Under the pieces are notes generated by a model. The model was not told where the DNA came from, searched no databases, and saw only the letters and a program-made list of their open reading frames with translations. A stretch of 42,414 bases of DNA, taken from a virus. Where the stretch lies: positions 1 through 42,414 of the IMG/VR virus record IMGVR_UViG_3300009537_000048; one strand, 5' to 3'. Positions 4,750-41,754 of this stretch are shown in pieces (the stretch's first letter is position 1; each line of letters opens with the position of its first letter). The position numbers were made by a program, and so were the translations under genes.

Positions 4750-4915
4750 CGGTTTCCTCTTCGTTCTCTAGCTTGCGTCTGATTCTCAGCCCGAGGGCTC
4801 GAGGCGTGTAATCGATTTGCGGCTCGTTGATGCGATACCAATTCCCATCGGAGCCGCGATACTCATCTCCGTCTCGAACAATTTCATCGAGGTAGACGTC
4901 ACGGTGCGTATTCAT
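4721..4915 (-). CDS. Hypothetical protein, 64 aa
   Basis: ATG 4913-4915 lies inside the end of the methyltransferase gene (17-nt overlap), in the coupled style of the operon. The frame is open upstream, but only as the antisense of the methyltransferase tail. The product is small and charged: DEIVRDGDEYRGSDGNWYRI, then a basic stretch (LGLRIRRKL) and an acidic tail (ENEEETDD). A small beta-hairpin protein is likely; function is unknown. Confidence 0.5.
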   Translation of the reverse strand: MNTHRDVYLDEIVRDGDEYRGSDGNWYRINEPQIDYTPRALGLRIRRKLENEEETDDTSNRSPE

Positions 4916-5714
4916 GGTTTGCCAGCCAGATCTCTGGCACCTTTCGATTCCCCTGGTTGCGAGTCCCCTTCTCAAGGATATTCCATCCAGGGTAAAGGTT
5001 GCGAATGAACCCGCAGTCATCGTAGCGGATCAGAATTCTCGCATTATTGAAATCATTGAGAAGTTCGGCGAGCAGAACGTGCTGAAAGGTCGTGAACGTG
5101 TATAGGTATGCATCGCCAGTCGTGTACCACGGCGGATCGGCGTAGATTCCGGATGTCGAGTTATCTCTTACCTTCGGAATCAAATGCGAGAATTCCATGC
5201 ACGTCCACTCGCAATTCTTCATGCAGGCAGCCCACTGAGAAAGCTCTTCCGCGGCCGTGTTGATTCTTGAAGCGTTGCTCCCTCCGGAATTGGTCATTCG
5301 GAAAGATGGTTTGGTCTGATCCGTCAGCTTCGATGTGCCACCGTTTCCGCCGCGGCCGACCCAGCACAGTGCCCAGTAGGCCCATGCAAGCTCTTGCCAT
5401 CCAGCGTGCTTATGATTAGTAACCAGGTGTGCGGCACGCATGATCTCTGATGGATGAGATAGCGTAGAGGAGCATTCGAGAATTAGTCTTTTAACTGGAC
5501 CATCACCGAATCGCCCACTGGCAACCTTGTAGAAGTTGATCGCGAATTCATTCAGGTCATTCGCCACGATCCGCTTGTCCTTCAGGAACGGCAGGATCGA
5601 CGCGCCACCAACGAAAGGGATCGTGATGTGATTGCACGACTGGAAGTAGGCAGCGATCTCTTCGGCGACCTGGGCATCGCTACCGAAGTACGACAGAGGC
5701 GACTTGGTTTTCAT
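4899..5714 (-). CDS. D12-class DNA adenine (N6) methyltransferase, Dam-like
   Basis: The 271-residue length is usual for the D12 (Dam-like) family, which transfers a methyl group from S-adenosylmethionine to N6 of adenine in a short DNA target. Visible motifs in order are the N-terminal PLSYFGSD (residues 6-13), the S-adenosylmethionine-site element FVGGAS (34-39), VANDLN (50-55) and the catalytic motif IV DPPW (193-196). Most family members have DPPY; the Trp variant is less usual but known among N6-adenine enzymes. The start ATG overlaps the stop of the winged-helix gene (ATGA). No cognate endonuclease is nearby, so it is an orphan methyltransferase. Probable roles are protecting phage DNA from host restriction or timing of packaging and transcription. 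The target sequence cannot be read from the gene. Confidence 0.85.
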   Translation of the reverse strand: MKTKSPLSYFGSDAQVAEEIAAYFQSCNHITIPFVGGASILPFLKDKRIVANDLNEFAINFYKVASGRFGDGPVKRLILECSSTLSHPSEIMRAAHLVTNHKHAGWQELAWAYWALCWVGRGGNGGTSKLTDQTKPSFRMTNSGGSNASRINTAAEELSQWAACMKNCEWTCMEFSHLIPKVRDNSTSGIYADPPWYTTGDAYLYTFTTFQHVLLAELLNDFNNARILIRYDDCGFIRNLYPGWNILEKGTRNQGNRKVPEIWLANHEYAP

Positions 5715-15348: not shown

Positions 15349-17802
15349 ATGGCGATAACTCCTGCAATGACGGGCATGAGCGGCATGTCCGGGATGACTG
15401 GCGGCTTCCTTCCCTCTAAACTGTCGAATCTTCGGCAGTGGTTTCTGGATAACTCTGGCTATCGATCCAGCGAGCTGAATGGAATTCCTGTCCTTGATTC
15501 CAAGGAATCATACGGGACGTATCGGCAGCCGCGTCAGGGAAGGTGCTACAACTTCGACAACACAGACGATCGAGTTGATTTGCCGGCGGCTGTTAACACG
15601 ATGTTTTCGCAAGCCAATGATTTCTCAATTGGAATTTCGTACATTCATTCCGCAGCAACCGGACACATCTTTTCCTCTTTCAATTCAAGTACCGATCGGT
15701 TTGTCATTGAGGACACTGGAAGCTCGCTGAGATGCAACGCCTACGATGGAACAAGCAACGGGGCCTCCACGACCACTACGCTTGTCAACGGAACCGTTTA
15801 TCGTATTTTTCTTTCTTGGGTCAATTCTACGTCGACGCTGAGTTTATGGATCGACTCTACGTTGCAGACTGGAACCCTTGCCGGTTCTCTTGGAGCAGGA
15901 GCCCCAGCGGCTTACCTGGGAGTGCTCACTTCCCTCACTAGCAATTGGGGCGGGAATCTGTGGGACGTTCGCTGTTATAATTCGGCGTTGAGCGATCCAG
16001 CGGACGAGGCCACGACAGCGCCGACATTCCTCTATCACTGCAACGAAGAATCGGGACTGACGGCCTACGATTCTTCCGGCAACGGCGCAGACGGCACACT
16101 CACCAACATCACCCAAAGCACGTTCCACGCAACTGATACTGGAGTGACGTCGAATCCAGCGAACGAAGTTGGTTACAGCGAGAGCGGCGCAGTCATCGTA
16201 CCGAGAGACGAATCTGACACAGACAACGACGTTCTTGGAAACCCACTGGACTACACCGGCAAAACTCCGTACCCAGCTCAGGTGAACACGCCATGCGTGA
16301 CACTCGACGGCACGGATGACTACATTGCGATGACCAACACGGTCAGGGACGTTATGACGACCGCGTCAGACTGGTCGATCGCGCTGAAGGTTTACGTGCC
16401 CACTGGTGCAGCAGGCGGGGACATGATCCTTAGTGTTACCGGGGCAGTTGGCAATGACAGGGCAGGAATCGAGTACAACGGTAGTGCTATCCGGTGCGGT
16501 GTTTGGGATGGGGCATGGATTGCAAAGTCAGGCGCGTTTTCTCTGGATACGTGGCACGAGATTGTTATGATCTATGATGCCTCTCCGAGAGGATTAACTG
16601 TTTACGTTGACGGGGCAGCGCTGGCTGGTTCAACGAGTCCGACATCGAATGGAACAGTAGCGGCAAACATTGGAGCACTTACAGCTGGCACGCTTGCGCT
16701 GGACGGACGCATCGCTGACGTCCGAATCTTCAACAGCAAGTTGGCGTCTGAAGCAGAGGCAAGAACTGTCACGCCAACACACTATTACCCGATGCAGGAA
16801 GGGGCTGGGAATATCGTCTACGACGTTGGCAGCACAGGAGGAGAGCACGGCACGATCACGAACGCTGCTCTTTCGGACTTCTGGGCCAACACGACCAACG
16901 ATGTAGAGGATCATTCGATCCTCTACGGCGGACAAAATATATTGTTCTTCAACGGGACAAGTGACTACGTTCGCCTGGATTCTGCGATCACGACAGGAAC
17001 GACGTTCTCGATTGCTGCGTGGGTCTATTTGCCAAGCTCGACGTCGTTTAGTTTCATTATCAACAACACTGGCGCGACGATCGGTCTTATTTACCGCAAT
17101 GGAAGCAATAAGTTCTCGTACTACTTCTCTTCGTCGGACCATCTGAGTGACACAGCTCTTCCGTCTGGATGGGTGCATGTCGTCTTCAGCGTTTCGTCTG
17201 GCACCGGAACCTTTTACGTTGACGGAACTGCTGACGGGACAGTTGCTTCGGTGCCAACCGCAGACTTACAGGACGTTGGGGGTAAGGCGGCTGGAGGAGC
17301 AAGTTTCAGTGGGCCGATGTACGACATTCGCGTTTACAGTGATGCATTGAGTTCAACGGAAGCTCAGTATCTGGCGTCAAACGGCGCGAGCGGGGACGAT
17401 CCTGGGACAGACAACCTGACGCTTCATCTCAAGTTTGACGGTGACGCGACTGATTCATCTGCAAGCGGAAACGATGGAACCCTTAACGGTCCGTCATTCG
17501 CGTTCGTTGGTGCCGATCCCTCCGCAGGAACGGTTTATCTTGGAGGAGAACCATCCCCGTCGCGCGTCGCCAACAAGCTCGGTAACGTCAATTCAGAGAT
17601 TGACACAAATCCCTATACAGCGGCCGAACTGAACGCACTCGGCGCAGAGACGGATTACGCGCTGACAGACACGCGGCAGGACGTTTCACCCAACGACACC
17701 AAATTCCGTCGTACAGACACGGATGGCGACGATCGTTTCTTCACGGTAGATACTGCACTAACAGGGGCCAACAAGACAGACGCGGAGGCGTATGTGTCAT
17801 GA
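15349..17802 (+). CDS. Tail or head fibre-like protein with three LamG/concanavalin repeats, 817 aa
   Basis: The protein is built from three copies of a LamG-type jelly roll. Their opening strands read CYNFDNTDDRVDL (about residue 66), CVTLDGTDDYIAM (about 315) and LFFNGTSDYVRLD (532-544). Each is followed by a FSIA/WSIA strand and ends in a D(V/I)R(C/I/V)(Y/F) turn. Each repeat is linked to a connector of the type EGxGxxxYDSSGNGxDGTLTN, present near residues ~230, ~485 and ~695. Such domains bind glycans, so host-surface binding is likely. The first 30 residues are a Met/Gly-rich tail. It starts with a strong TAGGAG site and overlaps the next gene by 4 nt. Confidence 0.75.
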   Translation: MAITPAMTGMSGMSGMTGGFLPSKLSNLRQWFLDNSGYRSSELNGIPVLDSKESYGTYRQPRQGRCYNFDNTDDRVDLPAAVNTMFSQANDFSIGISYIHSAATGHIFSSFNSSTDRFVIEDTGSSLRCNAYDGTSNGASTTTTLVNGTVYRIFLSWVNSTSTLSLWIDSTLQTGTLAGSLGAGAPAAYLGVLTSLTSNWGGNLWDVRCYNSALSDPADEATTAPTFLYHCNEESGLTAYDSSGNGADGTLTNITQSTFHATDTGVTSNPANEVGYSESGAVIVPRDESDTDNDVLGNPLDYTGKTPYPAQVNTPCVTLDGTDDYIAMTNTVRDVMTTASDWSIALKVYVPTGAAGGDMILSVTGAVGNDRAGIEYNGSAIRCGVWDGAWIAKSGAFSLDTWHEIVMIYDASPRGLTVYVDGAALAGSTSPTSNGTVAANIGALTAGTLALDGRIADVRIFNSKLASEAEARTVTPTHYYPMQEGAGNIVYDVGSTGGEHGTITNAALSDFWANTTNDVEDHSILYGGQNILFFNGTSDYVRLDSAITTGTTFSIAAWVYLPSSTSFSFIINNTGATIGLIYRNGSNKFSYYFSSSDHLSDTALPSGWVHVVFSVSSGTGTFYVDGTADGTVASVPTADLQDVGGKAAGGASFSGPMYDIRVYSDALSSTEAQYLASNGASGDDPGTDNLTLHLKFDGDATDSSASGNDGTLNGPSFAFVGADPSAGTVYLGGEPSPSRVANKLGNVNSEIDTNPYTAAELNALGAETDYALTDTRQDVSPNDTKFRRTDTDGDDRFFTVDTALTGANKTDAEAYVS

Positions 17803-26834: not shown

Positions 26835-27467
26835 ATGTTGGATTGGCTTAAAGCGGCGTTGAACACCCAGGCTGGTGGCGCAGCAGCATTAGGCGCTGGC
26901 GCCCAGATTGCCGGTCAACTATTTGGGCAGAAAACGACCAACACCACATCGACTGGATTTGACCAGAGCCAGTTGCCTTTCTTCCTGCGAATGCTTGGCC
27001 AAACGCAGCAAGCGAATCAGCAGGCCCGGCAGCAGATCAGCGGCGTCACCGGCCAACAGCTTCAGGCGAGCCAGGCAGGATACGGGCAGCTCTTGGGGAT
27101 GTTGTCCGGTCTTGGCAATGAGCAATTGCGGCGGATCACCGAGCGCGAGACGGCAGCAAGGGGACGTGGTCGGATGGCATTGGGGCAGCGAGGGCTCAGA
27201 AATACCACACTTGGAATATCATCCGATGTCGCGGCGGCTCGTCAGGCGGCGCGTGAGCGGCTGGCGGCACAGGAACAGATCCAGGGCAGGCTGGCCGGGG
27301 CGTTCGGTCAGCAGCTTCAAGCTTCGGACCGAATTCGGGCAGGTGAGTCGCAAGCACTTATTTCTCTGCTTGGTCAGAATCCACAGTTGCTCGGCTTGCT
27401 CGCACAGAACATTGCTGGATCACAACGTCAGGTTCAGACTCAGAAGAAACACGGTCTCTTCGGGTGA
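26835..27467 (+). CDS. Small internal (ejection) virion protein, 210 aa
   Basis: The protein begins with a hydrophobic, Ala/Gly-rich stretch (AGGAAALGAGAQIAGQLFG) followed by long Gln- and Ala-rich helices (TQQANQQARQQISGVTGQQ; AARQAARERLAAQEQIQGRL). No cysteine is present. T7 gp14 and P22 gp7-type proteins have this character: they are packaged inside the head and form a pore in the host outer membrane during ejection. It is the first of three consecutive genes of this kind. AGGTG upstream of ATG 26835 supports the start. Confidence 0.65.
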   Translation: MLDWLKAALNTQAGGAAALGAGAQIAGQLFGQKTTNTTSTGFDQSQLPFFLRMLGQTQQANQQARQQISGVTGQQLQASQAGYGQLLGMLSGLGNEQLRRITERETAARGRGRMALGQRGLRNTTLGISSDVAAARQAARERLAAQEQIQGRLAGAFGQQLQASDRIRAGESQALISLLGQNPQLLGLLAQNIAGSQRQVQTQKKHGLFG

Positions 27468-27470
27468 TGC

Positions 27471-29750
27471 ATGGCCAAAGAAAAACCAAACTTCCTTCGG
27501 TCATTAGTCGAGGGATTCGCTGTCGGATCAGGAGTCCCAGCGTCACTCCTTCCAAGTTCCATCGCTCGAGACGAAGCGGCCGAAGCGCAGAAGCTTGCCA
27601 ATGCACTTGAATTGGCTCGCGCTCGGACGAAGCCTGAAAAGCAACAGTTGATTCCTGATTTCGGAGGTGGCATCGACGCTTCGCTGTTCGGTCCAGCAGC
27701 GCTGTCGCAAGAGCAGCCGCCAGAGCCAACACCCGACGAGCTTCAGCAATCGCTCTCTGCGCGTATCAACGCAATTCCACCAGAACGACTCCGTCCTGAC
27801 AAGCTTCCGGAATACAACCGCCTGAAGCGTGCTGAGCAGATTATCAACAGCGAAGACCTGACTCCAAAGCAACGCGCGGAACTTGCCGCCCAGGGTCACC
27901 TTGCAGCCGATCGGGCGATGCTCGAGGACGCGGTGATTCCGGAGCCGACAGCGGAAACTGAATATGCCAAGCGAGTATTCCATGATGGTGAACGTGCTGC
28001 CATTCTCAAAGGCAACGGAGATCTTGAGCTGAACGACAAGCTCGAACAGGCCAAGATCGATAGCGACACGCGGCTGACGATCGAGAAGATGAAGATGAAG
28101 GCTCAGCGTGCGTCGGAACTGAAGACGCAGGAAGGAGAACTTGCGAAGCAGAAAGAGCAAGACTGGTCGCGAATTGCTCTGGATGAGGAGAAGGCGTTCT
28201 TTGAGGAATCGCCGATTGAAAAACGAGAGGCTGAGTGGGACAAGCGGTGGCGTTCCGTCAACGATGAAGTCAACCCGCCAGCTGGATGGGCGAAGATGAA
28301 GGTTCGCCAAGACTTGAAAGATCGACTGGCGAACCGTCGCGGCATGTGGCAATTCGAGGAATCGATTCCGGATTCTGACCCGCTCGATCAAGTCTACGAG
28401 ATGCGGAAGGATGATCCTGATCAGTGGATCGTTGAGAAGGATGACGCGATTGCCAGGCTCAAAGATGCTGGAAATGAGGCTCCGACATTCGACGATATCG
28501 TGCTGGATATTGCCGAGAACGGTTCGATCGGCGAACTGGCCAAGATCAAGCGTCTCAAGCAAGAGCGGATGCTTTCAGAGGTGGAACGGAAACAGGCCGA
28601 TTTGCTTCGCCGTGCGGCTGATGCTGCTGCTGGAATGCCTCAAGCCCCAGCGACTCCTTCTCCTCGAAAGCCTGGGGAAACGGCAACAACGATTGAGCCC
28701 AGCCCAATTGTCCCAACTCCAGAGGAACAGGCGGTCGCTGAAACACAGCCGAATACGCTCGAAGGAATGAAGGCGATCGGAAAGAGCGTGGCGTACAACG
28801 CGATCAAGGAATCGATCAAGCGAGTTATCGGCGTCGATCCAGAACAAGAGGAAACACCAATCGTTGACCTTTCCACTGTGTCAGCACATGCCAAATCGCC
28901 TCACCGTAAACGTGGTCCGCAGCGAATCAAACTGGAACAGGCGGTGCGCGAACAACTCGCCGATGCAATGAAGCGGCCGGTTGGTAACGTTCCGCAGTAC
29001 GAAGTGGATCGAGTCTTGTCGTTTGACGACGTGCTTGCGATGGAAAAGCAGCCGAAGAAACAAGAAGGCGAGACGTACTTCCAAGATCTGTCGGAAGAAG
29101 AACAGGCTGAGATGCGCAAGGTCGTTACGCCGATCATGCGAGAGGAGGATTATGACGCATTGCCTCCAGGTGAATTTGCGATGGATCCAGAAACCGGTCT
29201 GATTCGACAGAAGGCAATTCCAAACAGATCATCGGAGTGGCTACAGGAATACTCCGACATCCCAGTTGTCAGTGACGCAAAGTCATTCGACGATATCCCT
29301 GTTGGTGAAATTTACGCGGATCAGCGCATACTCGATTCAATGGATGCCAAAGATGAAAGTATTCTCCGAGATGCAATCGCAGGAGCCATCGGAAGTGTTT
29401 CGGATGCTATGAATCCAGTGGTTCTGGCGGGACGAGGAGCTGGCATCGTGCAACCCGACGAAAGCCTTGGCAAAACTGCTGCTGATGCGATTCTGGACAT
29501 GCTCATTAAGCCACGGGCAGACGTTGTTGGACCCGGTGCGCATGCGTTCAAGATCAAGAAAGAAGGCGACAAGTGGGATGATAAGGACGATGACGTGATG
29601 CTATCGGACGTGATCGTGCAAGCGGCCAAAATTGCTCCATCGGCTTTCAAGACCGGTTTCACATCAGCTCGCAAGACAATGAGCAACGAACGCAGGAAGA
29701 TGGCGGCTGAGTCGAGGAAGTCGATTGTTGGTCGTCGCTCAAAAAGGTGA
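27471..29750 (+). CDS. Internal virion protein, 759 aa, largely coiled coil
   Basis: This is a large, highly charged, mostly helical protein rich in Glu, Lys and Ala with no enzymatic motif. Long coiled-coil-like stretches include DLELNDKLEQAKIDSDTRLT and LKQERMLSEVERKQADLLRR. Proline-rich linkers (PATPSPRKPGETATTIEPSP) split it into parts. The C-terminus is very basic (ERRKMAAESRKS, GRRSKR). It has the position and character of T7 gp15-like proteins that line the DNA-ejection conduit. It starts 4 nt after the 210-residue gene and ends 4 nt before the giant protein gene, so all three are coupled. Confidence 0.65.
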   Translation: MAKEKPNFLRSLVEGFAVGSGVPASLLPSSIARDEAAEAQKLANALELARARTKPEKQQLIPDFGGGIDASLFGPAALSQEQPPEPTPDELQQSLSARINAIPPERLRPDKLPEYNRLKRAEQIINSEDLTPKQRAELAAQGHLAADRAMLEDAVIPEPTAETEYAKRVFHDGERAAILKGNGDLELNDKLEQAKIDSDTRLTIEKMKMKAQRASELKTQEGELAKQKEQDWSRIALDEEKAFFEESPIEKREAEWDKRWRSVNDEVNPPAGWAKMKVRQDLKDRLANRRGMWQFEESIPDSDPLDQVYEMRKDDPDQWIVEKDDAIARLKDAGNEAPTFDDIVLDIAENGSIGELAKIKRLKQERMLSEVERKQADLLRRAADAAAGMPQAPATPSPRKPGETATTIEPSPIVPTPEEQAVAETQPNTLEGMKAIGKSVAYNAIKESIKRVIGVDPEQEETPIVDLSTVSAHAKSPHRKRGPQRIKLEQAVREQLADAMKRPVGNVPQYEVDRVLSFDDVLAMEKQPKKQEGETYFQDLSEEEQAEMRKVVTPIMREEDYDALPPGEFAMDPETGLIRQKAIPNRSSEWLQEYSDIPVVSDAKSFDDIPVGEIYADQRILDSMDAKDESILRDAIAGAIGSVSDAMNPVVLAGRGAGIVQPDESLGKTAADAILDMLIKPRADVVGPGAHAFKIKKEGDKWDDKDDDVMLSDVIVQAAKIAPSAFKTGFTSARKTMSNERRKMAAESRKSIVGRRSKR

Positions 29751-29754
29751 CTAA

Positions 29755-32700
29755 ATGGCCAAATGGACTGAACGCGCGAAGTCTGCAACATTGGAAGCGA
29801 TCGAGCGGGCGAAGGATATAAATCGTCGCATCGAGGAAGAACGCGGCAACGTCCCTGACAGCGCGATTCTTCGCAATCTCCGCGGTGTCGGCAAGACTTT
29901 GGCAGTTCGGTCGCTCGCTGTACCTGCGAAGCTCCTAGAGCCGGTTCTTCCGGGTGCAGCGGAATCTCTGCATCGATCGGAGCGAGCGACGCAGCAAGTG
30001 CTCGCCGAACGTGACCCAGAGACTCCGCTTCCGGACATCATCGAGCGAGGAATGCGAGAGGCAGCCGTCACGTTGCCCCAGATGGCTGTGCTGAGTCGAT
30101 TCGGAGGTGCTAAAGGAATCGTTGGTGGAACGATGGCGCAGGTGTTTGAGCGTGAATATTCCGCTGCTGTCAAACGAGGTGCGAGCCCACGGGTGGCATT
30201 CAAGTTTGCCGGCCAGCAATCCGCGATCGAGGGTGGTGTCACAAGTCTGTTCATGAGTGTCGCCCCTGGACTGGAAGGAATGTTCCTCAAAAGCGGTCTT
30301 TCCAAGGAAGTCGCAGAAGGAGGATTGAAGGGTCTGAGGAAAGGCGTCATAAGCGGTGCAAAGAGTTTCGGCGCTGAGCTTGGTGAAGAAGAACTGATCG
30401 AACTGGCTTCACTGGTCAATTCAAAACTGGCGGGAATGGATCCCAACGCTTCTCTGGAAGACGCCGAAGAGGTGGCGATGGATACCGCCGTCACGACATT
30501 CATTACATGGGGTGCAGCGAAAGGAATCCAAACTGCCGGGAATCGAGCCAAGCGACTTCGTAGCATCCAGGAAGAGATCGAATCGACCCCAGCTGATGTA
30601 GATCAAGGCGCGTTCGTCGACATCACCTACGAAGTCCTCCAGGACGTCGATGAGGTCGAAGTCGACAAGGTCACCAAAGCGCTCAACGATGCCGGCGCGA
30701 CAGCGGATCAGGTTGTCGAAGCTATCAGCACTGTCGTCGATCCAGAGATATCCGAATTCGAGATCAACGGCAACAAGATCCAAAAGCTGGCGCCGGAGGA
30801 ATCACGTCGTCGTCGCCAAGTGATCGAGGAAACCAAGCAGGCTGGCCAAGCCGAGGAAATGACTCCCGAGCAGGCCGCTGTAGCAGCACAGATTCTTGCC
30901 GAGGATGAAGGCTCCCCTGCCCCGGTCGAAGCTCCTCAGCCAACCCCTGCAGCTCCCGCAGTCGTCACACCTTCGCCGACCGTTACACAACCTTCCGATG
31001 CCATCGTCGCCGAAACACAGCAGGAAACAGGGAAACCGGCGCCCATTGAAACCAAGAAGCCGGTAGAAACGCCGACCCAGCAACCACCAGAGGAGGTCTA
31101 TTCTGGATACACGGTAGAGGTCGAAGGCGAAGCAGGGTGGTTCGCCCCAGAGGGAGAGCCAGAGGCAGTCGAGGTTGATGGTGAAGAGCACGAAGTCGCT
31201 TTCTACAACCCCAAGGAAAAGCAAGTCTCGTACTACGACGAGAACGGAGATGAAGTCCTAGTCGATCTTGTAGAGGAACCAGAACCAGAGGCCGCGCCGC
31301 CAGCGAAGAAGCAGCCCGCGCTCAAGAAACCGGCTGACGAGACTCCAGCGGCGCGACCTCCTTTCAAGATGCCGGAACCGTTGGCCAAGGCATCGCCGCG
31401 GTACGGCACTCAGCAACTCCAGTTCGAGTCCGACTACGATCGGGCTGCCTACATCCTTTCAAAGACAGGGAGACCAAGTGCGCAGCAGGCCAAATTCATT
31501 CGGGCACTCGAGGAACAAGGTCACACGATCGACGACGTTCGCCGTCACGGGCGCGAGGTGGTCAGACCTTACATCAAGCAACAGGGCGACACCAAGGCGA
31601 AGAACGTGTTGCGTGTGCCACGATCGGCGATTGTACCGCGGCCGATGGTTAAGCCCGAAGCACCTGCACCGAAGGCACCTCCAAAGAGCGTTGTCGGCCG
31701 GAAGCCCAAGAAGCCTGCGAAGCCTGCTTCCGAGAAGCCAAGTGTGAAGAAGCCGAAAGAGGAGAAGGAACCGAAAGCCGAGAAGCCCGAAACTCCACCT
31801 CAGGCGGAAGAAAAGCCTGATGCTGAAGTGCGTCCAGTAAAGGTGCTCAAGAAGTCTGTTCGGTTCGCACCCGAGACTGTTCTTCCGAATACCGTCAAGC
31901 AGAAGAAGGTCACTGTCCGCGGCAAAGAGTTCATCGAAGTTCCGAAGTCGGAAGTTGACAAGATTCCAGGGTATGTTGGTCCGGAAAAACCTGAGCCCAA
32001 GAAGAAGCCGCCGCAGAAGACTGTTCTCAATAAAAACGCCTTTGACGCTGAGAGCATCAAAGGAAACGAAATGGGAAAGAGAGCCTTGGTCATTGCCTTG
32101 GCAGCAGCTCGACCGGTCAGGTTTGTTGCAGCCAACGAAGGAGCCGAACCATTCATAGCGCAGTTCAGAAAGACTGCAAATAGCCTTGGCATCAAAGAAT
32201 CAGACGATGGAATCCCTGTCCCTGTCGAAAAGCCACCACAACGCGAGATAGATTCCAAATTGCTTGGAACTTCATCGCAGAACATTCTTGACACAGTGAG
32301 TGGGAAGAATATCAATGTTCCGACTGAGTTGGATAGAAATTCCCAAGTGCTACTCAAGGATGCTGTTGAAAAGTTGGCATTGAGCCAGGCCGAATCCAAG
32401 TCCATTCAGGACGTCGCTGGACATATCGCAGCTCTTCAAGATCACAGCGTCATACAAGCAGAAGACATTGCTGAGGCGATCAACCAGCTCACTTACGGAA
32501 GGACAGTTGATGAATCTGTGTCGGCGAAAGTCGAACAAGAAGCGAAGCCTGCAAAGAAGAAGCAGGCAATAAGAAAAGGGACGATCGCTGACAAATTCCA
32601 GAAAGCCAAGGATGAAACAGACGGTGCGTTCCTGCTGTTCAAGATGGGCGACTTCTACGAAATGTTCTATGAAGACGCTGAGTTAGGAGCCAAGTCGCTT

Positions 32701-35700
32701 GGATTGACTCTCACGACTCGTGATAAGTCTAGTGACAATCCAATTCCGATGGCTGGATTCCCTTACCATCAGCTTGATGCTTACATTGTCAAGCTTGTGA
32801 AAGGCGGGAACAAGGTTGCTGTCGTCGAGCAAGTTGACGATAAGGGCAATCCTATTTACGGGGAAACGGTGACACCTGCAAAGAAGTCTGAGCAAGGACT
32901 GTCCTCGGATGCAGAATCTGAATTGGCCAAGTTGATCGAGCGTTACGAAACACAGGCACGCAAAGATGAAGGTGGAGCTGGTATCGCTGTCGGTGCCGAG
33001 AACATCAATTACAGATGGGCTGCCGATGCCTTGCGTCACATGCGAGACAGGATGCGGGCTGGCGACTCTGTTGAGGAAGCAGCAGACTCTGCGAAATCCA
33101 AAGCGAGGGAATGGATTGACAAGCACAACAAGCGTCGGCCAAAAGATGTCAACTGGGCGCGTTCGGAAACCTCGGCTGATTCGTATATCACAAACGCTGT
33201 CCGCGTTTTGAGCAAGAACAAGAAACCAGCAAAGAGCGTTATTCCGAAGAAGGCAAAGAAAGACGACAAGGTGATTATCGGCAAGAAATCACATCTTGAC
33301 GATCAAGGTGTTGTCGAGAGAGCACTTCGTCGTGAACAGGAAAAAGGAAAGCCAGCCTGGTGGGATGGATCTCACCTCTACAGACTTGGCGGAAAGTACG
33401 AACTGACGACAGACGAAAAGGGGAGGCAGACGCTCAGGAAACTGCACAACCTATCCATCGGCGGTATCTTGAATCACTACCCTGGACCAAATGAACTCAT
33501 TTCCACAAATCAAGCAGCAATCGACGCCAAAGCTGAACTTGATGCAAAGGAAGCGGATAAGAAAAAGGCTCGCGATGAGAAAGCAGAAGCCGATCGAGTC
33601 ACCGCAGCCGAAGAAAACCAGCGAGTCCAATCTCTCGACAAGGACATTAAAGATCATATTGCTGTCGTCAAGCTGCGTGGCAAGAAGGAGAAGATCAAGA
33701 TCCTTCTTGGGGATCGGGAAACTGAGATAGAAGCGCCAGCGACGGTGTATGGAAACTTGGCTGTTCACAAGGGCGAAGCAGACAGCAAAGAACGTCAATG
33801 GAAAGTCGCTATCGTTCCTGCCAAAGGAAACATCACAGCGTTTGCGACGAAGAAAGAGGCCACGAATTTCGTGAAGATGATTCACGGCCTGTCTGACTTC
33901 AACATGAAGGACGCTGGAGAGTTGGTCGGCACTCCTGAATACGAGACGATGAAGCTTGCGGCTGCATACGCCAAGTTCGCCGGAATGAAGGTCGATGAAA
34001 TTCAGAAGTTAAGGGATGCATTGGTTGGTGTGACGACGGAAACCAAAAAGCCGAAGTCATCCAAGAAGAAGTCGGGCGACCGTCGTGCGAAAGCTCCAAT
34101 GCTGATTGCGAGAGCCGCCAAACCTTCACCATCGAAACCACAGGCAAAGGCCAATGTCCGAAAAGGTGGAATCGCCAGCAAGATTCAGGAGGATGGTTCC
34201 AATCGGAAAGTTGGTCGTCGATCGATCGCTGAATTCCTGAACAACGCATTCGGCGCTCACATGATTGTCACGACGAGCCAGACGTCCAGGAGTCATCCTG
34301 CTTTGATCCGCAATTCAGGATCGGTCATCTTCACGCGGAGTGGTTCATGGGATCTGAATATCCATGAAGCCGGTCACGCTCTGGACAGTATCCTCGAGTC
34401 TCAGAATCCAAACTGGTATTCCTCGATTGGACCAGAGCTGGAGGTGTTCGCCGCAGATCCAGTTCTTGCTCCGAATGCATCAGCTCCGACAGCAGAGGAA
34501 GGTATCGCTGAATTAGTTCGTCAGTATGTCACAGGACAGGAGACCGATCAGCAGTTGACCGATCGAATGATCGCCGCTGTCAAGCAGACCAGCCCGGAAC
34601 TGCACGCAACACTCGCTGACGCAAGGCAGGCTTACCGACTTCACCTGTCGCGACCGGAGCCAGAACGTGTAGCCGCTGACAGGAATGATCGTCCTGCTGT
34701 CGCCACTGCTGCCAGCCGCGCAGAAGAATGGTTCTGGAGTGCTCTCACTCATATCATCGGCAAAGGTGTGCTCAACCACAGGTATCGACGTCGATTGTGG
34801 AAAGCCGTAACCGGCGAATCAACGGCTGCGATGCTGGATCCAACTGGAGTGATTGGATCGATTCACAAGATGATGAGTGATGAGAAGCGTGCTCGCGACC
34901 AGATTGCGAAAGGTCTGCTAAACGAACGCCGACCTGACAACGTCGAGGTTGTGTACCAGAACAAAATAAGAACTTCGTCTGCCATTCTCCAAGCACTTCA
35001 GGGAAATGGGCTGACGCTCTACTTGTACGGCGATGGATTCAACGCGCTGTCGAAAGAGGATATCCGAAAGCTTCGAGACGCTGGCCTTCCTCTGCCAGAG
35101 AAGTTTGCCAAGCATGGCGAGCCGCAAAGGATCACAACGAAGTCGTTTGAACAGATCACCCAAGCGGTCGGAGACAAGAACTGGCAGGACTTTGAAACTG
35201 CCGTCTATGATCGAGTCGCCTACGAACGACACACGAAGGCTGGGCATGAATACCCTGGCATGGATATTCGATCTCCAGAAGACTTGAAGCGTGCATCGGA
35301 CAAGGCGTTCGAGGAGAACCCTGAATGGGAGAAACACTTTGATGATCTGCAAGAGTTCATGGCGCAGAATCTTCTCGTCGGCATGTTGGGTGGACAGTAC
35401 ACGGTCAATGAGGTCGTCGCGATTCACACGAAATGGGATGTGTACGCTCCACTTCAGAAGCAGATCGAGAACGCGGCGATGGGTGGTGGATCGCGATCGA
35501 CTGAGCCCGACTTTGGTGTTCGACGGGCTCGCGGCACAAGTCAACTGGAGTATCGGCCGCTGAAGGATTCCATCGAAGATCGCGTCAAGCAAGCGGTTCG
35601 CGCCTACACAGATAACGCGATGGCTCTCGCGGTTCGCGATCGGTCTCGCCGGATCGGAAGCGACAAGCGAATCGATTACAAAACTCGCCAGGATATCCAG

Positions 35701-38217
35701 CGGACGATGATCCCTCTGAATCTGGATCGAACAGTCGATGCTACGGTTGATCCGTTAATGGCGGGAGAAATCATCGCCGATGGCATCAACCGGAAGACCT
35801 TGGAGGAAAATGGGATATCGACGGAAGGCATGTCTCGCCGGCAGGTGATAGAGGAGCTGGAAAACCTTCCGGAGGATGTGTTTACTGCCCAGGACATTGC
35901 TCTGGCTATCCCAGGTCTCCCGACGATCAACATCTACGGACATAAGAAGCCGAACCTGCCTCGCGTGGTTGGTTTGTGGGAGAACGGACAGAGGAAGTAT
36001 TACCACGTCGCTGATCCTATGAATTTCGCGATGTTCGTGGAAACAGGTGGTCAGGATGCTTTGCTCAATCATGTGACGAACGTGCTTGGAAATCTCGCCG
36101 AGCCGTGGAAGCGAGCCTATACAGAGGCTCTCAAGTTTGCCATCCGAAACTTCCCTCGCGATGTCATCACGGCTTCATTCAATGCGGACACGGTTCGTGG
36201 ATCGATTCCAGGATACTACGCTTGTCTCGCGACACTGGAGATGATTACCGGAGGAACCTACATTCAGGAGGCCAGGGAAGCAGCCAAAATGATGGCCAGG
36301 TCATTCGACGCAACGACAGGCCATGATCATTACTCCCGGTGGCAAAACTTCACGGCCATGGTGGCTGAAGGGATCAAGGATAAGCATCACTACAACATGA
36401 CGTTCACTGAATGGCTGATTGCAGCTCCAGGTCGCGGTATGTCATTGGGGCTGAAGACGGTCGATATCATCAACTACATTACTGGTGGTCGGGCTCTTTC
36501 CAAATTCACTGAGTCATTGACACGCGAAGGCGCCTACATCGACGCCAGACGACGAGGACTGGATCAGGCGACCGCACACCGTAAGTTTGACCTCAGCTCT
36601 GGAAACTTTGCTCAGCGACAGGCGAATCGAACCGTCGCTGGATTCGTTCGCGCTGCTGGCTTTCTGAATCCGGCGTTGCAGATCATGTGGCAGAACTACG
36701 AAGCGATATCGCATCCAAGTCCTTCGCGTCGTCTGAGCCTGAATGCTGCGAAGGCGTCTTACATCAGCTCTTTGGCTGCGGCAGCTGCGGCAACCAACAT
36801 TCTTCTGATTCGCAGCCTGTTCGATGATGACGAGGCCGAAGAGATTCTCGAGAACATGCGTGAGACGCCGGAGAAGGAGCGACTTGGGAATGCGTCGATC
36901 ATGGGATGGTTCCGAATGCCATTCGATTACGGGATGGCTGGAACGCTGATGTCCACCGTCTGGAACGAAACGCAAGATCACATCCTCGGACAGCTTGGAA
37001 AGCCCGTCAACAAAGATGCAGTCGAAAGAGCCAAGGCGGTGATCATACGCGCGGCGAACCTCCCGAAGGCGGACAGCCTGATTCCGCCGAGCGTGAAGGT
37101 GGGAGTCGAGCAGTATCGAAACCGTGTAGAATACACGGATCGGGAAATCGTTCCGTCCTACATGCTCGATCGGTACGGTGAGAATCCTCAGTTGCAGTAT
37201 TTCTGGGACACGCCTGAAATCTACATGGAAATTGGAAGCGCTGCTGGAGTCAGCCCGCTAAGGGTGCAGCACGCGGTCAAAGGAATCATGACCTCAGTCA
37301 TCGACAGCACGGTTGTCTACTTGGACAAAGTCCACAAAGGTCGAGCGAAGTGGGCAGATTTCCCTCTGACTCGAGGACTGATTACATGGGAGCCGCGCGG
37401 CTTGAATTCCAGATCGGTTCAGACCCTGATGGACATGGATGCCGCACATCAAGCTCTCAAGATCGCCATCGAGAAGGACACCCGCCTATCGAAAGAGCAG
37501 AAGGACAAGCTTCGATCCAAGCGGGACGCCTTGGAGATGGCCAGCGAGACCATGAAATCGATCACGAAACTCTGGGACGACATCCGTGAAGAACGAAATA
37601 GCGAGACCCCAGATTACGACCGGATCGAGTCGCTCGAGCGTGAAATCCGCGATATCGCCTCCGAATTCATCAATGACGAGAAGATATCTCCTGACATCCT
37701 CGCCAAGACATTCGACGCTCAGATCGACCGCATGATGCCATACAAGCCGTCTGGGAGCCGTCTTTACAAACCCGGCAAAGGAGCACCAACAAAGCCTGAA
37801 GAGCCATCCAAGAGCCGCGCAGTGGCTCCTGACGCCTGGAATCAGTACGATCGCGACATTGAGGAATACCAGAATCGCCTGGAAATCTTCCGTGAGTCCA
37901 AGCAGGCAGCCCGTGGAGCGATCAGAGATCTCCTCGGCCGTCCGAAGGGATTATCGGCCGAAACGCTTCAGGCGATGCAGAAACGGCTCAGGACAGCGAT
38001 GAGCAGCCAATCTCGACCAAAGCCGCCTTCCGCCACGTTCAAGAGCCGGAAGGGCACCAAGAGCCGCTCAGAGCAGTACAAGGCTTGGAAGGAGTCATGG
38101 GATTCGTACAGGACGGCACGCGAGGAATTCATCGACTTCCAGCAGGAAGCGGCTGACATTCTGGAACGGGTTGAATCGCTGATCGACGTCCAGGATCTGA
38201 AGCAAGCATCGCCATGA
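29755..38217 (+). CDS. Giant internal virion protein (2820 aa) with ComM-like remnant, MutS domain I and zincin motif
   Basis: The start is ATG 29755, with AAGGTGA upstream. Domains by eye: ~95-260, a hydrophobic Ala/Gly-rich region typical of ejected phage proteins; ~375-470 and ~620-695, Pro/Lys/Glu linkers; ~549-615, a LQFESDYDRAAYIL domain common in phage polyproteins; ~763-921, a ComM/Mg-chelatase-like region (IKGNEMGKRALVIAL; LSQAESKSIQDVAGHIAALQ) whose Walker A loop is replaced by ANEGAEP. At ~944-1032 there is a MutS domain I with GDFYEMF (F967, E969) and PIPMAGFPYHQLDAY. A zincin motif HEAGH (1537-1541) is followed by EEGIAEL (1581-1587). Residues ~2115-2550 match the polyvalent-protein type (RNFPRD, 2131-2136; NPALQ, 2305-2309). 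A helical C-terminus follows. It is probably ejected with DNA. Confidence 0.8.
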   Translation: MAKWTERAKSATLEAIERAKDINRRIEEERGNVPDSAILRNLRGVGKTLAVRSLAVPAKLLEPVLPGAAESLHRSERATQQVLAERDPETPLPDIIERGMREAAVTLPQMAVLSRFGGAKGIVGGTMAQVFEREYSAAVKRGASPRVAFKFAGQQSAIEGGVTSLFMSVAPGLEGMFLKSGLSKEVAEGGLKGLRKGVISGAKSFGAELGEEELIELASLVNSKLAGMDPNASLEDAEEVAMDTAVTTFITWGAAKGIQTAGNRAKRLRSIQEEIESTPADVDQGAFVDITYEVLQDVDEVEVDKVTKALNDAGATADQVVEAISTVVDPEISEFEINGNKIQKLAPEESRRRRQVIEETKQAGQAEEMTPEQAAVAAQILAEDEGSPAPVEAPQPTPAAPAVVTPSPTVTQPSDAIVAETQQETGKPAPIETKKPVETPTQQPPEEVYSGYTVEVEGEAGWFAPEGEPEAVEVDGEEHEVAFYNPKEKQVSYYDENGDEVLVDLVEEPEPEAAPPAKKQPALKKPADETPAARPPFKMPEPLAKASPRYGTQQLQFESDYDRAAYILSKTGRPSAQQAKFIRALEEQGHTIDDVRRHGREVVRPYIKQQGDTKAKNVLRVPRSAIVPRPMVKPEAPAPKAPPKSVVGRKPKKPAKPASEKPSVKKPKEEKEPKAEKPETPPQAEEKPDAEVRPVKVLKKSVRFAPETVLPNTVKQKKVTVRGKEFIEVPKSEVDKIPGYVGPEKPEPKKKPPQKTVLNKNAFDAESIKGNEMGKRALVIALAAARPVRFVAANEGAEPFIAQFRKTANSLGIKESDDGIPVPVEKPPQREIDSKLLGTSSQNILDTVSGKNINVPTELDRNSQVLLKDAVEKLALSQAESKSIQDVAGHIAALQDHSVIQAEDIAEAINQLTYGRTVDESVSAKVEQEAKPAKKKQAIRKGTIADKFQKAKDETDGAFLLFKMGDFYEMFYEDAELGAKSLGLTLTTRDKSSDNPIPMAGFPYHQLDAYIVKLVKGGNKVAVVEQVDDKGNPIYGETVTPAKKSEQGLSSDAESELAKLIERYETQARKDEGGAGIAVGAENINYRWAADALRHMRDRMRAGDSVEEAADSAKSKAREWIDKHNKRRPKDVNWARSETSADSYITNAVRVLSKNKKPAKSVIPKKAKKDDKVIIGKKSHLDDQGVVERALRREQEKGKPAWWDGSHLYRLGGKYELTTDEKGRQTLRKLHNLSIGGILNHYPGPNELISTNQAAIDAKAELDAKEADKKKARDEKAEADRVTAAEENQRVQSLDKDIKDHIAVVKLRGKKEKIKILLGDRETEIEAPATVYGNLAVHKGEADSKERQWKVAIVPAKGNITAFATKKEATNFVKMIHGLSDFNMKDAGELVGTPEYETMKLAAAYAKFAGMKVDEIQKLRDALVGVTTETKKPKSSKKKSGDRRAKAPMLIARAAKPSPSKPQAKANVRKGGIASKIQEDGSNRKVGRRSIAEFLNNAFGAHMIVTTSQTSRSHPALIRNSGSVIFTRSGSWDLNIHEAGHALDSILESQNPNWYSSIGPELEVFAADPVLAPNASAPTAEEGIAELVRQYVTGQETDQQLTDRMIAAVKQTSPELHATLADARQAYRLHLSRPEPERVAADRNDRPAVATAASRAEEWFWSALTHIIGKGVLNHRYRRRLWKAVTGESTAAMLDPTGVIGSIHKMMSDEKRARDQIAKGLLNERRPDNVEVVYQNKIRTSSAILQALQGNGLTLYLYGDGFNALSKEDIRKLRDAGLPLPEKFAKHGEPQRITTKSFEQITQAVGDKNWQDFETAVYDRVAYERHTKAGHEYPGMDIRSPEDLKRASDKAFEENPEWEKHFDDLQEFMAQNLLVGMLGGQYTVNEVVAIHTKWDVYAPLQKQIENAAMGGGSRSTEPDFGVRRARGTSQLEYRPLKDSIEDRVKQAVRAYTDNAMALAVRDRSRRIGSDKRIDYKTRQDIQRTMIPLNLDRTVDATVDPLMAGEIIADGINRKTLEENGISTEGMSRRQVIEELENLPEDVFTAQDIALAIPGLPTINIYGHKKPNLPRVVGLWENGQRKYYHVADPMNFAMFVETGGQDALLNHVTNVLGNLAEPWKRAYTEALKFAIRNFPRDVITASFNADTVRGSIPGYYACLATLEMITGGTYIQEAREAAKMMARSFDATTGHDHYSRWQNFTAMVAEGIKDKHHYNMTFTEWLIAAPGRGMSLGLKTVDIINYITGGRALSKFTESLTREGAYIDARRRGLDQATAHRKFDLSSGNFAQRQANRTVAGFVRAAGFLNPALQIMWQNYEAISHPSPSRRLSLNAAKASYISSLAAAAAATNILLIRSLFDDDEAEEILENMRETPEKERLGNASIMGWFRMPFDYGMAGTLMSTVWNETQDHILGQLGKPVNKDAVERAKAVIIRAANLPKADSLIPPSVKVGVEQYRNRVEYTDREIVPSYMLDRYGENPQLQYFWDTPEIYMEIGSAAGVSPLRVQHAVKGIMTSVIDSTVVYLDKVHKGRAKWADFPLTRGLITWEPRGLNSRSVQTLMDMDAAHQALKIAIEKDTRLSKEQKDKLRSKRDALEMASETMKSITKLWDDIREERNSETPDYDRIESLEREIRDIASEFINDEKISPDILAKTFDAQIDRMMPYKPSGSRLYKPGKGAPTKPEEPSKSRAVAPDAWNQYDRDIEEYQNRLEIFRESKQAARGAIRDLLGRPKGLSAETLQAMQKRLRTAMSSQSRPKPPSATFKSRKGTKSRSEQYKAWKESWDSYRTAREEFIDFQQEAADILERVESLIDVQDLKQASP

Positions 38218-39241: not shown

Positions 39242-40870
39242 TCAACCTCCACTCGGGCATTTACATCGGGCCATGACTTCGCCGCAGTTGCTGCAGATAC
39301 CCCATGACTTCAGACTCGGTCCAGTTCGAGGGGAGCCGTACAGGTATTCCTCGATAGTGTCCAATTCCTCCTTGGTGTATCCGCCAACGAGCAATTCGGC
39401 TACTTGCTCGGGTGAATAGACATCGACGTGCGGAGGATCGTTAGGACCAAAAATCCTGCGGCGATACGTTTGTTGCGAATCTTTGTCTTGGCCTACCTTT
39501 CTTCTGTCGCTCGGATGCCACACCCATTCCGGCTTTTTTCCGCTGCGACAAATATCCATGATGCTTTGATCGTCAGGACCAAGCACACCGGTAGATTCAA
39601 TCAGCTCGTACCCGTCGCCAGCTTCGCCTTCCGGTGAAAACTCGCATTCGTCTGGATAGGGATTCCCGTGTCGATCGCGCCGCTCAGGGACATCGATCTT
39701 GAATGGCTCGCCTTCACGCTCATTGCCGTACAGGGCTTCATCGACACGTTTCATGTGTTCGACTTCTTCAGCACTGGCGACGTAGACGTTGTTTCCCATG
39801 TCCGTCCCAGGTGGCTGCGAGGAGGGTTCCTCGTAATGTTTGATACACCTTTCCAATCGTTCTTGATATCGGTCGTCAACATAAACACGGAAGCTGCGAT
39901 CCGTGGACAGGTCCTTGAGTAGATCGAGGACTATTTGATTTGTGATCTTCGGAATAGTCTCGTTGGCTGGTGGCACAGAGGCCGGTTCACGATCAAGCAA
40001 AAACCCAACAACAATATCCCTGCCACATTTTGGGCACTTCCATTCGTAATCAGGGTCATGTGGACGAAGCTCGAAGTCAGTCGTCTTACCTTCATGGCCA
40101 CATTCGCATCGATATTGATCCTTTGGAAGCTTCTCATTGGCTGGTGGCGCCGAGGCCGGTTCCTCGCGGTACTCCTGCTTGGTTGGACGGCCGCCAGGTG
40201 GAGGAATCACAGCCGAAAACGGCTTCATGCACTCCATGTCAAAGAGCAGTTTCATGATCCGTTCGTTGTCCTCTGCCAGGAAACACATAGCCGCGCGATC
40301 GATTGTCGCTTCGGAGTCATCACCATGGTTCTTGCACAACGCTGCCGCCTGTATCGCTAGTGGGCAATTCCTCATGACGTGCCACCTCTTCTCTTCGAGC
40401 ATCTTGTGAAGCTCTGATGCAGGACCTTCATTCGGCCGCGGATCGGAATCTGGAACACAATACGGAGACACGCCAAGCACTTCGTTGATCTTGTCGTCAA
40501 TCAGGTCGGCCGGATGGCCTTCAAGCGTCTTTTCCATACACAGCTTGATGATCCCCATGATTTCGTCCAAAAGGCTGGTCTTCGTTGATTCTGTCACCTG
40601 AACGTGCGTGTCAAGAATCTTGCAAACTTGGTGTCGTGTCTTCGTGTCGCTCATGACTTCTCCCCAAAAGGCTTTCTGGAATTCTCGATCGATCTGCCGC
40701 AGTGTTTCTGCAAGGGATCGTCGAATCAATTTGACCGGGATCGCGAAGTGATGCCCACGCTGGCAATACCCGCTATGAATCTTGTCGGCCAGTGCTCCGC
40801 AGATGTGGCAAGGACCGTTGTAAACGGGATCAGTGCGTTTCTTGACATCGACCTGGAGATCGTGGTTCAT
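39242..40870 (-). CDS. Modular multi-zinc-ribbon protein with repeated proline linkers, 542 aa
   Basis: Three zinc-binding-type groups are visible: C21/C24/C36/H40 (CHICG...CQRGH), C255/C257/C279/C282 (CECG...CPKCG) and C526/C529/C536/C538 near the end (CSNCGEVMARCKC). Linkers EPASAPPANE (237-246), EPASVPPANE (295-304) and EPSSQPPG join the modules. The first two linkers are also repeats at the DNA level (27/30 bp). The N-terminal helical half (residues ~45-220) and the C-terminal half look unrelated, so the gene is probably a fusion of several small accessory proteins. It overlaps the GIY-YIG gene (ATGA). A nucleic-acid-binding scaffold is possible; function is unknown. Confidence 0.6.
   Translation of the reverse strand: MNHDLQVDVKKRTDPVYNGPCHICGALADKIHSGYCQRGHHFAIPVKLIRRSLAETLRQIDREFQKAFWGEVMSDTKTRHQVCKILDTHVQVTESTKTSLLDEIMGIIKLCMEKTLEGHPADLIDDKINEVLGVSPYCVPDSDPRPNEGPASELHKMLEEKRWHVMRNCPLAIQAAALCKNHGDDSEATIDRAAMCFLAEDNERIMKLLFDMECMKPFSAVIPPPGGRPTKQEYREEPASAPPANEKLPKDQYRCECGHEGKTTDFELRPHDPDYEWKCPKCGRDIVVGFLLDREPASVPPANETIPKITNQIVLDLLKDLSTDRSFRVYVDDRYQERLERCIKHYEEPSSQPPGTDMGNNVYVASAEEVEHMKRVDEALYGNEREGEPFKIDVPERRDRHGNPYPDECEFSPEGEAGDGYELIESTGVLGPDDQSIMDICRSGKKPEWVWHPSDRRKVGQDKDSQQTYRRRIFGPNDPPHVDVYSPEQVAELLVGGYTKEELDTIEEYLYGSPRTGPSLKSWGICSNCGEVMARCKCPSGG
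39959..39988. repeat. 30-bp direct repeat, copy 1 (partner 40133-40162)
   Basis: It matches 40133-40162 at 27 of 30 positions in the same orientation and encodes part of the EPASVPPANE linker of the zinc-ribbon protein. Confidence 0.8.
40133..40162. repeat. 30-bp direct repeat, copy 2 (partner 39959-39988)
   Basis: 27 of 30 positions match 39959-39988. It encodes the EPASAPPANE linker, in the same frame as copy 1. Confidence 0.8.
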
Positions 40871-41754
40871 TGGCTTTCAGTCTTGGAGGTTAGCTTGCCC
40901 TCATTGTTGCGGCTTGGCCGCAACTGCCAAATGTAGAAACATTCAGCAAAGTGGATTTCCTTGGCATCCATGGGGATCGTGACGATCAGATCATCCTCAC
41001 GGATGGTGGTGTGGCCCTTCAGGCGAGAAGGGATGTTGACGGATTTGCCAACGTAAGCGCAGCCATCGATATCCCAGGCCGTGTAGATTCCAGAAAACGG
41101 GTCGGCTGCGATGATATCGTGAAGGAAGCGGCCCTGACAAAGATCCACGGCCGGCATTCCATGACACTGGAAGCTTCGCTCCAAGTCCATAAGGCTGGCC
41201 AGTTCGAGGATAGACGACCTAACCGATTCTTTGGTCACACACTGGCGGTGAGCGAGGCCGCGGAGCCGCTTCAATACTGTCTTGTAGCTCGGATCGTAGA
41301 TAGCCTTTGAGATCAGCTCTTGTGCTTGGAGAACGCCTCGTTCAGCCGCCTCGCGCATTCTCAGAGTTTCGTCATGCTTCTTCGTCAATTCCATCTGAAC
41401 AGCCCAATCGAAGTTCGTTCGCTCGACTTCAACGAACGCATCGAAGCAAGCCGCGAACCCCTCAAAAAACGCGACTGGTAGACAAAGGTGTTCGGCCAGG
41501 GTTGCGATCGATACCCAGCCACCACCCTTGTAGGACCACCGTCCCGTTTCCGTGTCGCACTGAATCACGAGATTCTTGTGGCGATTCAGGTCCCAGAGCC
41601 CTATTTTCATGATCGGCCAGTCGCCGAGACAGATCGTTCTGATTCGGATGCGACCACCCACGCGACTGTAGAACGTCCGAATCAATTTCTCGGCTTCGTC
41701 GCCACCAGAGTCAAGTCTCGCATTGATTTCGTCGTGATAGGTATCGGCAATCAT
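40867..41754 (-). CDS. Protein with C-terminal GIY-YIG nuclease domain, 295 aa
   Basis: The start ATG overlaps the previous stop (ATGA). The first ~215 residues are helical and of unknown fold. The last 75 residues show the GIY-YIG nuclease pattern: GIY (222-224), YVGKS (234-238), Arg244 and His248, and Glu271 in HFAECFYIWQLRPSRNN as the metal-binding residue. GIY-YIG enzymes cut DNA with a single metal ion and occur in homing endonucleases, UvrC and phage nucleases. The N-terminal part may give DNA or partner specificity. It is the best-defined enzyme in the right-hand operon. Roles in host DNA breakdown, recombination or homing are possible. Confidence 0.7.
   Translation of the reverse strand: MIADTYHDEINARLDSGGDEAEKLIRTFYSRVGGRIRIRTICLGDWPIMKIGLWDLNRHKNLVIQCDTETGRWSYKGGGWVSIATLAEHLCLPVAFFEGFAACFDAFVEVERTNFDWAVQMELTKKHDETLRMREAAERGVLQAQELISKAIYDPSYKTVLKRLRGLAHRQCVTKESVRSSILELASLMDLERSFQCHGMPAVDLCQGRFLHDIIAADPFSGIYTAWDIDGCAYVGKSVNIPSRLKGHTTIREDDLIVTIPMDAKEIHFAECFYIWQLRPSRNNEGKLTSKTESQ

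Follow-up and report, generated by a model that had tools for sequence, protein, structure and literature searches.

The window analysed here is the entire 42,414-base stretch of virus record IMGVR_UViG_3300009537_000048. The last gene of its plus-strand structural module is a giant open reading frame (ORF), with the Shine-Dalgarno-like sequence AAGGTG (29744-29749) just 5' of its ATG. In order, the module comprises a terminase-like protein, an SU10-like portal, an SU10 adaptor, a nozzle-type protein matching a virion structural family, ORFs of 210 and 759 aa, and the giant. The adaptor matches the SU10 adaptor in Pfam (E 2e-18); the portal resembles the SU10 portal at E 2.5e-4, under the cut-off of that model, and a portal search among named phages gave no match. 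Also within the structural module, upstream of the adaptor gene, an 817-aa protein (15349-17802, plus strand) contains three concanavalin A-like (Laminin_G_3) stretches (E 5e-36) and is possibly a receptor-binding or decoration protein. On the minus strand, a gene block includes a D12-class N6-adenine DNA methyltransferase (4899-5714; E 5.5e-14), and the C-terminal part of the product of 40867-41754 looks by eye like a GIY-YIG nuclease ('GIYTAWDIDGCAYVGKSVN...'), with no match in Pfam. The features of the giant and of the two genes before it are as follows:

26835-27467, plus strand: 210-aa ORF in a gp14-like position (size and order only; no family match)
27471-29750, plus strand: 759-aa ORF in a gp15-like position (size and order only; no significant family match)
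29755-38217, plus strand: giant ORF, 2820 aa, ATG start, single uninterrupted frame
30835-32034, plus strand: Pro/Glu-rich and Lys/Pro-rich linkers flanking the FES module, at about residues 361-540 and 605-760 (composition)
31348-31566, plus strand: FES module, 'SPRYG...FESDYDRAAYIL', residues 532-604 (tblastn hits H21 and H28; profile)
32293-32484, plus strand: ComM/YifB C-terminal lid-like domain (Mg_chelatase_C), residues 847-910 (Pfam PF13335; NCBIfam TIGR00368)
32593-32844, plus strand: MutS domain I (MutS_I), residues 947-1030 (Pfam E 7e-26)
34069-34677, plus strand: zincin metallopeptidase domain, residues 1439-1641 (HEAGH at 1537-1541; Glu1582 in EGIAELVRQYVT)
35527-37569, plus strand: LPD38-type C-terminal region, residues 1925-2605 (hhalign; profile built without the window)
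36145-36162, plus strand: RNFPRD at residue 2131, inside the LPD38-type region
36661-36681, plus strand: FLNPALQ at residue 2303, inside the LPD38-type region
36754-36810, plus strand: hydrophobic helix after FLNxxxQ, residues 2334-2352 (top hydropathy window of the whole protein)

The original prediction had described a 2820-residue protein carrying, in order, the FES FESDYDRAAYIL module, a ComM-like remnant, MutS_I, a zincin, and an RNFPRD/NPALQ region of polyvalent-protein type. The frame is real, the domain coordinates confirm the order, and MutS_I, the zincin, and the polyvalent-protein C-terminus were each borne out by the evidence detailed below. The giant joins several domains with unrelated activities in a single chain and has late/virion genes upstream on its strand, the hallmarks of a large polyvalent protein. 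The succession of a nozzle-type protein, 210 aa, 759 aa, and the giant also resembles that of T7, in which gp14, gp15, and gp16 measure 196, 747, and 1318 aa, respectively (PMC8954989). As neither preceding ORF matches a family, their likeness to gp14 and gp15 rests on order and size; neither homology to these proteins nor any sequence homologue of known function was detected. The prediction that the giant follows "two typical internal virion proteins" fits by position and size, with no family match for either ORF.

To score the domains of the giant, profiles were built without the window sequence, and each was scored against the window protein and 200 shuffles. The first signal from the C-terminus was weak tblastn similarity to giants of Vibrio, Shewanella, and Escherichia phages, and direct searches of viral contigs with the whole protein and with the C-terminus found no close relative. 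Aligned against a partner profile composed of Pfam LPD38 proteins, the C-terminus matched over 569 columns (hhalign 98.4%, E 1e-14), scoring 127.6 versus at most 26.4 for 40 shuffles; the LPD38-region profile gave 82 bits versus 5.6 for the best shuffle. In RNFPRD, the residues on invariant columns are N, R, and D, and in FLNPALQ they are F, L, N, and Q. The Pfam LPD38 model itself (PF18857) stays below cut-off, with no match to the window protein at E≤10, and the giant is therefore a divergent member; we use the label "LPD38-type" since the homology is seen solely via intermediate LPD38 proteins. From IMG/VR, 40 relatives of the C-terminus were fetched, and LPD38 was found in all 18 that were domain-scanned, several of which also carry ART, RadC, InPase, ddrB-ParB, methylase, or helicase domains. 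When prokaryote genomes were searched with the LPD38 alignment, five loci emerged, none with MutS_I.

One element of the prediction, a hydrophobic N-terminal region, did not hold, as the best 19-residue window there has a mean hydropathy of 1.16, with no clear membrane helix. The strongest such window of the protein is instead the helix at residues 2334-2352 (1.56), inside the LPD38-type region; its position ranks among the three highest hydropathy peaks for 30 out of 35 non-identical relatives. Being both the strongest and conserved, this C-terminal helix is the better replacement for the "hydrophobic N-terminus," and it is possibly a membrane-inserting segment.

In the zincin, an HExxH motif is followed by a Glu ligand in alpha-helical surroundings. 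Both HEAGH and Glu1582 align with the invariant ligands of relatives, Glu1582 being the third ligand, and EGIAELVRQYVT corresponds to EGFAEFVRLWLT of Vibrio-phage-like giants. The domain matches the zincins of phage polyvalent proteins, with an hhalign score of 44 versus at most 18.7 for 50 shuffles, and a modest 11.3 bits for the window-free profile versus 3.7 for the best shuffle. Its AlphaFold core is helical and confident over approximately 100 residues (pLDDT ~90). Among the best structural matches in BFVD is one annotated as a "large polyvalent protein associated domain" (probability 1.00, E 0.03), and a PDB fold search with the zincin model gave nothing significant (best E 0.27).

The Phe-x-Glu motif of MutS is a mismatch-recognition, DNA-contact motif. 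It is intact in MutS_I of the giant, in which F967 and E969 align to F36 and E38 of E. coli MutS. The domain is 40-49% identical to bacterial MutS, finds MutS chains in the PDB (E 1.5e-17), scores 106 bits with the window-free profile versus 8.0 for the best shuffle, and is modelled with a pLDDT of ~77-95 across residues 945-1040. No match to the connector, core, clamp, or ATPase domains of MutS was found in the giant with Pfam or NCBIfam; i.e., domain I is present by itself. MutS_I of the giant probably binds DNA. The GC content of its segment (0.48) is only slightly lower than that of 235-residue segments of the ORF (0.49-0.58), which is not decisive for a horizontal origin by base composition.

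In the N-terminal half, the FES module (51 bits with the window-free profile versus 5.3 for the best shuffle) matches by tblastn hypothetical proteins of marine Autographiviridae. These FES-bearing proteins are 1484 or 1596 aa long and lie after tail tubular proteins and smaller internal genes, i.e., in the gp16 position. The module recurs in 30 further IMG/VR loci, with SLT, ParB, Zeta-toxin, or SNF2 domains in some of the proteins. The ComM lid just passes its Pfam model (PF13335, 26.6-28.3 bits; cut-off 26), matches positions 434-497 of the 499 in the TIGR00368 model (E 2e-6), and is predicted as helices with low confidence. Pfam and NCBIfam detect this C-terminal lid only, the AAA+ Walker A/B ATPase core of ComM/YifB being absent from the giant. 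Residues 763-800 resemble the start of the ComM ATPase, lacking the P-loop (score 41 versus E. coli YifB over 38 residues, above the 99th percentile of shuffles); this similarity is suggestive only, yet "remnant" is a fair word for the ComM part because the segment exceeds that percentile, and the prediction of a ComM-like remnant thereby gains modest support.

To compare the slot between phages, a terminase search was run; it identified relatives at 30-50% TerL identity whose portals and major capsid proteins (MCPs) are also related. Two such sister phages had sufficient downstream sequence (TerL 47% and 32%, MCP 56% and 26% identical to the window), and their giants were located by synteny; the whole window protein had given no match when searched against the sister contigs. 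In each, the structural genes are followed by a single giant ORF, of 2705 aa in one phage and 2784 aa in the other. HEIGHLVDW lies at 1472 in the first and 1574 in the second, and both show a hydrophobic peak near 2390. Their N-termini showed no similarity to that of the window protein. Both are without MutS_I and the FES module, and the ComM lid was not found by Pfam; the 2784-aa giant (L195, 8166-16517) instead contains PBECR3 at 1240-1352 (Pfam), a predicted nuclease of polyvalent proteins. With the LPD38 profile, the sister giants score 11.2 bits, which is marginal, and 0.7 bits (best shuffle 5.6). As this likeness is weak, our claim is of a shared slot, size, and zincin motif, with the C-terminus only probably shared. 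The middle part of the giant thus seems to be swapped between related phages, and the comparison suggests that a peptidase, and probably an LPD38-like delivery end, persist in the ejection-protein slot as its cargo varies.

Among the LPD38 and FES relatives retrieved by the C-terminal and FES searches, none contains MutS_I. An initial scan of viral contigs for MutS_I returned mostly whole bacterial MutS. With a phage-type MutS_I profile, 80 loci were obtained, the ORF being readable in 78; 55 of these ORFs are not whole MutS, though a few of the 55 are cut by a contig end. Most of these proteins are short, with several fused to ParB: in three phage contigs (L221, L241, and L261), MutS_I is joined to ParB_N and HTH_ParB in either order, and many other phage contigs encode stand-alone MutS_I proteins of ~110-700 aa. 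Phage contigs thus encode many MutS_I proteins other than MutS, in addition to the elements that the 2017 survey lists. One locus (L231, also recovered as L283; IMGVR_UViG_3300031867_007788) contains an ORF of 6282 codons, with an open 5' end, in which ddrB-ParB, Kinase-PolyVal, MutS_I, SNF2 helicase, HExxH, ART-PolyVal, and LPD38 lie in one frame. Having both, it makes MutS_I in an LPD38 giant rare rather than unique. The original prediction knew of no described protein with the order seen in the window; we also found none in the literature examined, but the wider scheme is not unique, given L231 and the reported presence of MutS_I in polyvalent proteins (PMC5512222). Among the proteins found here, the window protein is the only one in which sequence matches place an FES module and a ComM lid together with MutS_I and an LPD38-type region.

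Taken together, the anatomy of the giant and its comparison with relatives support the predicted ejection-type large polyvalent protein with DNA-directed (MutS_I) and protein-directed (zincin) domains. In the reading that we consider likely, the giant is a large polyvalent protein in a gp16-like slot that would be packaged, ejected, cut by its zincin, and held on DNA through MutS_I. The phage would be a podovirus with an SU10-like portal and adaptor, from which the giant, packaged in the head, would exit with the DNA. The LPD38 C-terminal region and hydrophobic helix would serve in virion incorporation and membrane passage. Either before packaging or after entry, the zincin would cut its own chain, freeing the variable N-terminal/middle segment, which MutS_I would then hold on the entering phage DNA via mismatched, unpaired, or distorted sites. 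Packaging, entry, zincin cutting, and delivery of a DNA module are proposed by analogy with two systems: (i) T7 gp16, the C-terminal part of which is implicated in cytoplasmic DNA binding and has putative membrane helices (PMC8954989), and (ii) P1 DdrB, which bears this kind of peptidase and is proteolytically processed before packaging (PMC5512222). We consider packaging and ejection likely; the chances for and against self-cleavage by the zincin appear evenly matched, and a role in protecting the entering genome is rather doubtful; these gradings, and that for DNA binding, are our judgement.

Could the giant be purely structural? It would then be a very large gp16 analogue forming a cell-envelope channel, with MutS_I, the ComM lid, and FES as passengers kept for length or packaging and devoid of effector roles. 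The gp16 slot and size order would fit, as would a ComM lid without its ATPase core, and the absence of the modules from the sister giants would imply their dispensability for core function. Yet MutS_I retains the Phe-x-Glu DNA-contact motif, the zincin has intact ligands that are also conserved in divergent polyvalent proteins, and relatives carry catalytic cargo, which together make this account improbable. The same low standing befits a second alternative, which shares the delivery step and differs in the activities of the zincin and MutS_I: the peptidase would mainly cut host proteins, and MutS_I would compete with host mismatch repair or act as its decoy. Host targeting is the alternative given for the peptidase by Iyer et al. 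2017, and the 40-49% identity of MutS_I to bacterial MutS also speaks for this account; against it, it is processing that is documented for P1 DdrB, with the same kind of peptidase (PMC5512222), and domain I lacks the dimer and ATPase parts of MutS. Very improbable is a fixed tail or tape-measure-like component that stays outside the cell, since, despite the gene lying at the end of the structural module, the SU10-like portal/adaptor and the T7-like gene order suggest a virion with a short tail, which needs no tape measure, and neither LPD38 nor the zincin nor MutS_I is a tail-shaft module.

Extending the favoured reading of an ejected, DNA-held polyvalent protein, an injected mismatch-recognition domain joined to a self-cleaving peptidase could yield a freed module that travels on the incoming genome, whose ends or lesions it would shield or mark against host nucleases or repair. 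The giant gp16 slot would then be an exchangeable cargo bay, its content swapped between sister phages and its delivery end constant. We regard this full scenario as unlikely.

Among the closest known systems are the LPD38 polyvalent proteins (class described by Iyer et al. 2017, PMC5512222), represented by giants of Vibrio phages 1.183.O and 1.232.O and Escherichia phage PTXU04. Like the window protein, these lie at the end of the structural module and have an LPD38-type C-terminus, a zincin in many cases, and mixed cargo; unlike it, they carry methylase, helicase, ART, RadC, InPase, and similar domains, with MutS_I in none of those fetched by the C-terminal search. L231, which also pairs MutS_I with LPD38, shares the succession of MutS_I, HExxH, and LPD38, but also contains ddrB-ParB, Kinase-PolyVal, SNF2 helicase, and ART-PolyVal; FES was not found in it, and Pfam detected no ComM lid. 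MutS-I likewise occurs outside MutS in polyvalent proteins from Bacteroidetes and Firmicutes elements, ~80% of them with ArdC-N (PMC5512222). Of our loci, L254 and probably L011 belong to this group, L254 having an MPTase-PolyVal zincin beside MutS_I, as in the window. These proteins differ in their ~800-aa length, C-terminal MutS_I, and lack of LPD38, and L254 has ArdC-N, a domain with no match in the window protein.

T7 gp16 and the gp16-position proteins of marine Autographiviridae (S31-C1 and P-SCSP2) share with the giant a slot after gp14-/gp15-like genes, and the marine ones share FES. They are shorter (1318-1596 aa), and the FES group has no match to MutS_I or LPD38. T7 gp16 carries an N-terminal transglycosylase, none being seen in the window protein, and has putative membrane helices near its C-terminus; the giant has one conserved hydrophobic segment, at 2334-2352. 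The ejection-protein review does not mention polyvalent proteins (PMC8954989). The window protein represents an architecture new to the phage polyvalent proteins, a class already known, and is probably ejected. It places a recognisable mismatch module in a probably injected phage protein and offers a testable link between the ejection proteins of short-tailed phages and the polyvalent proteins.
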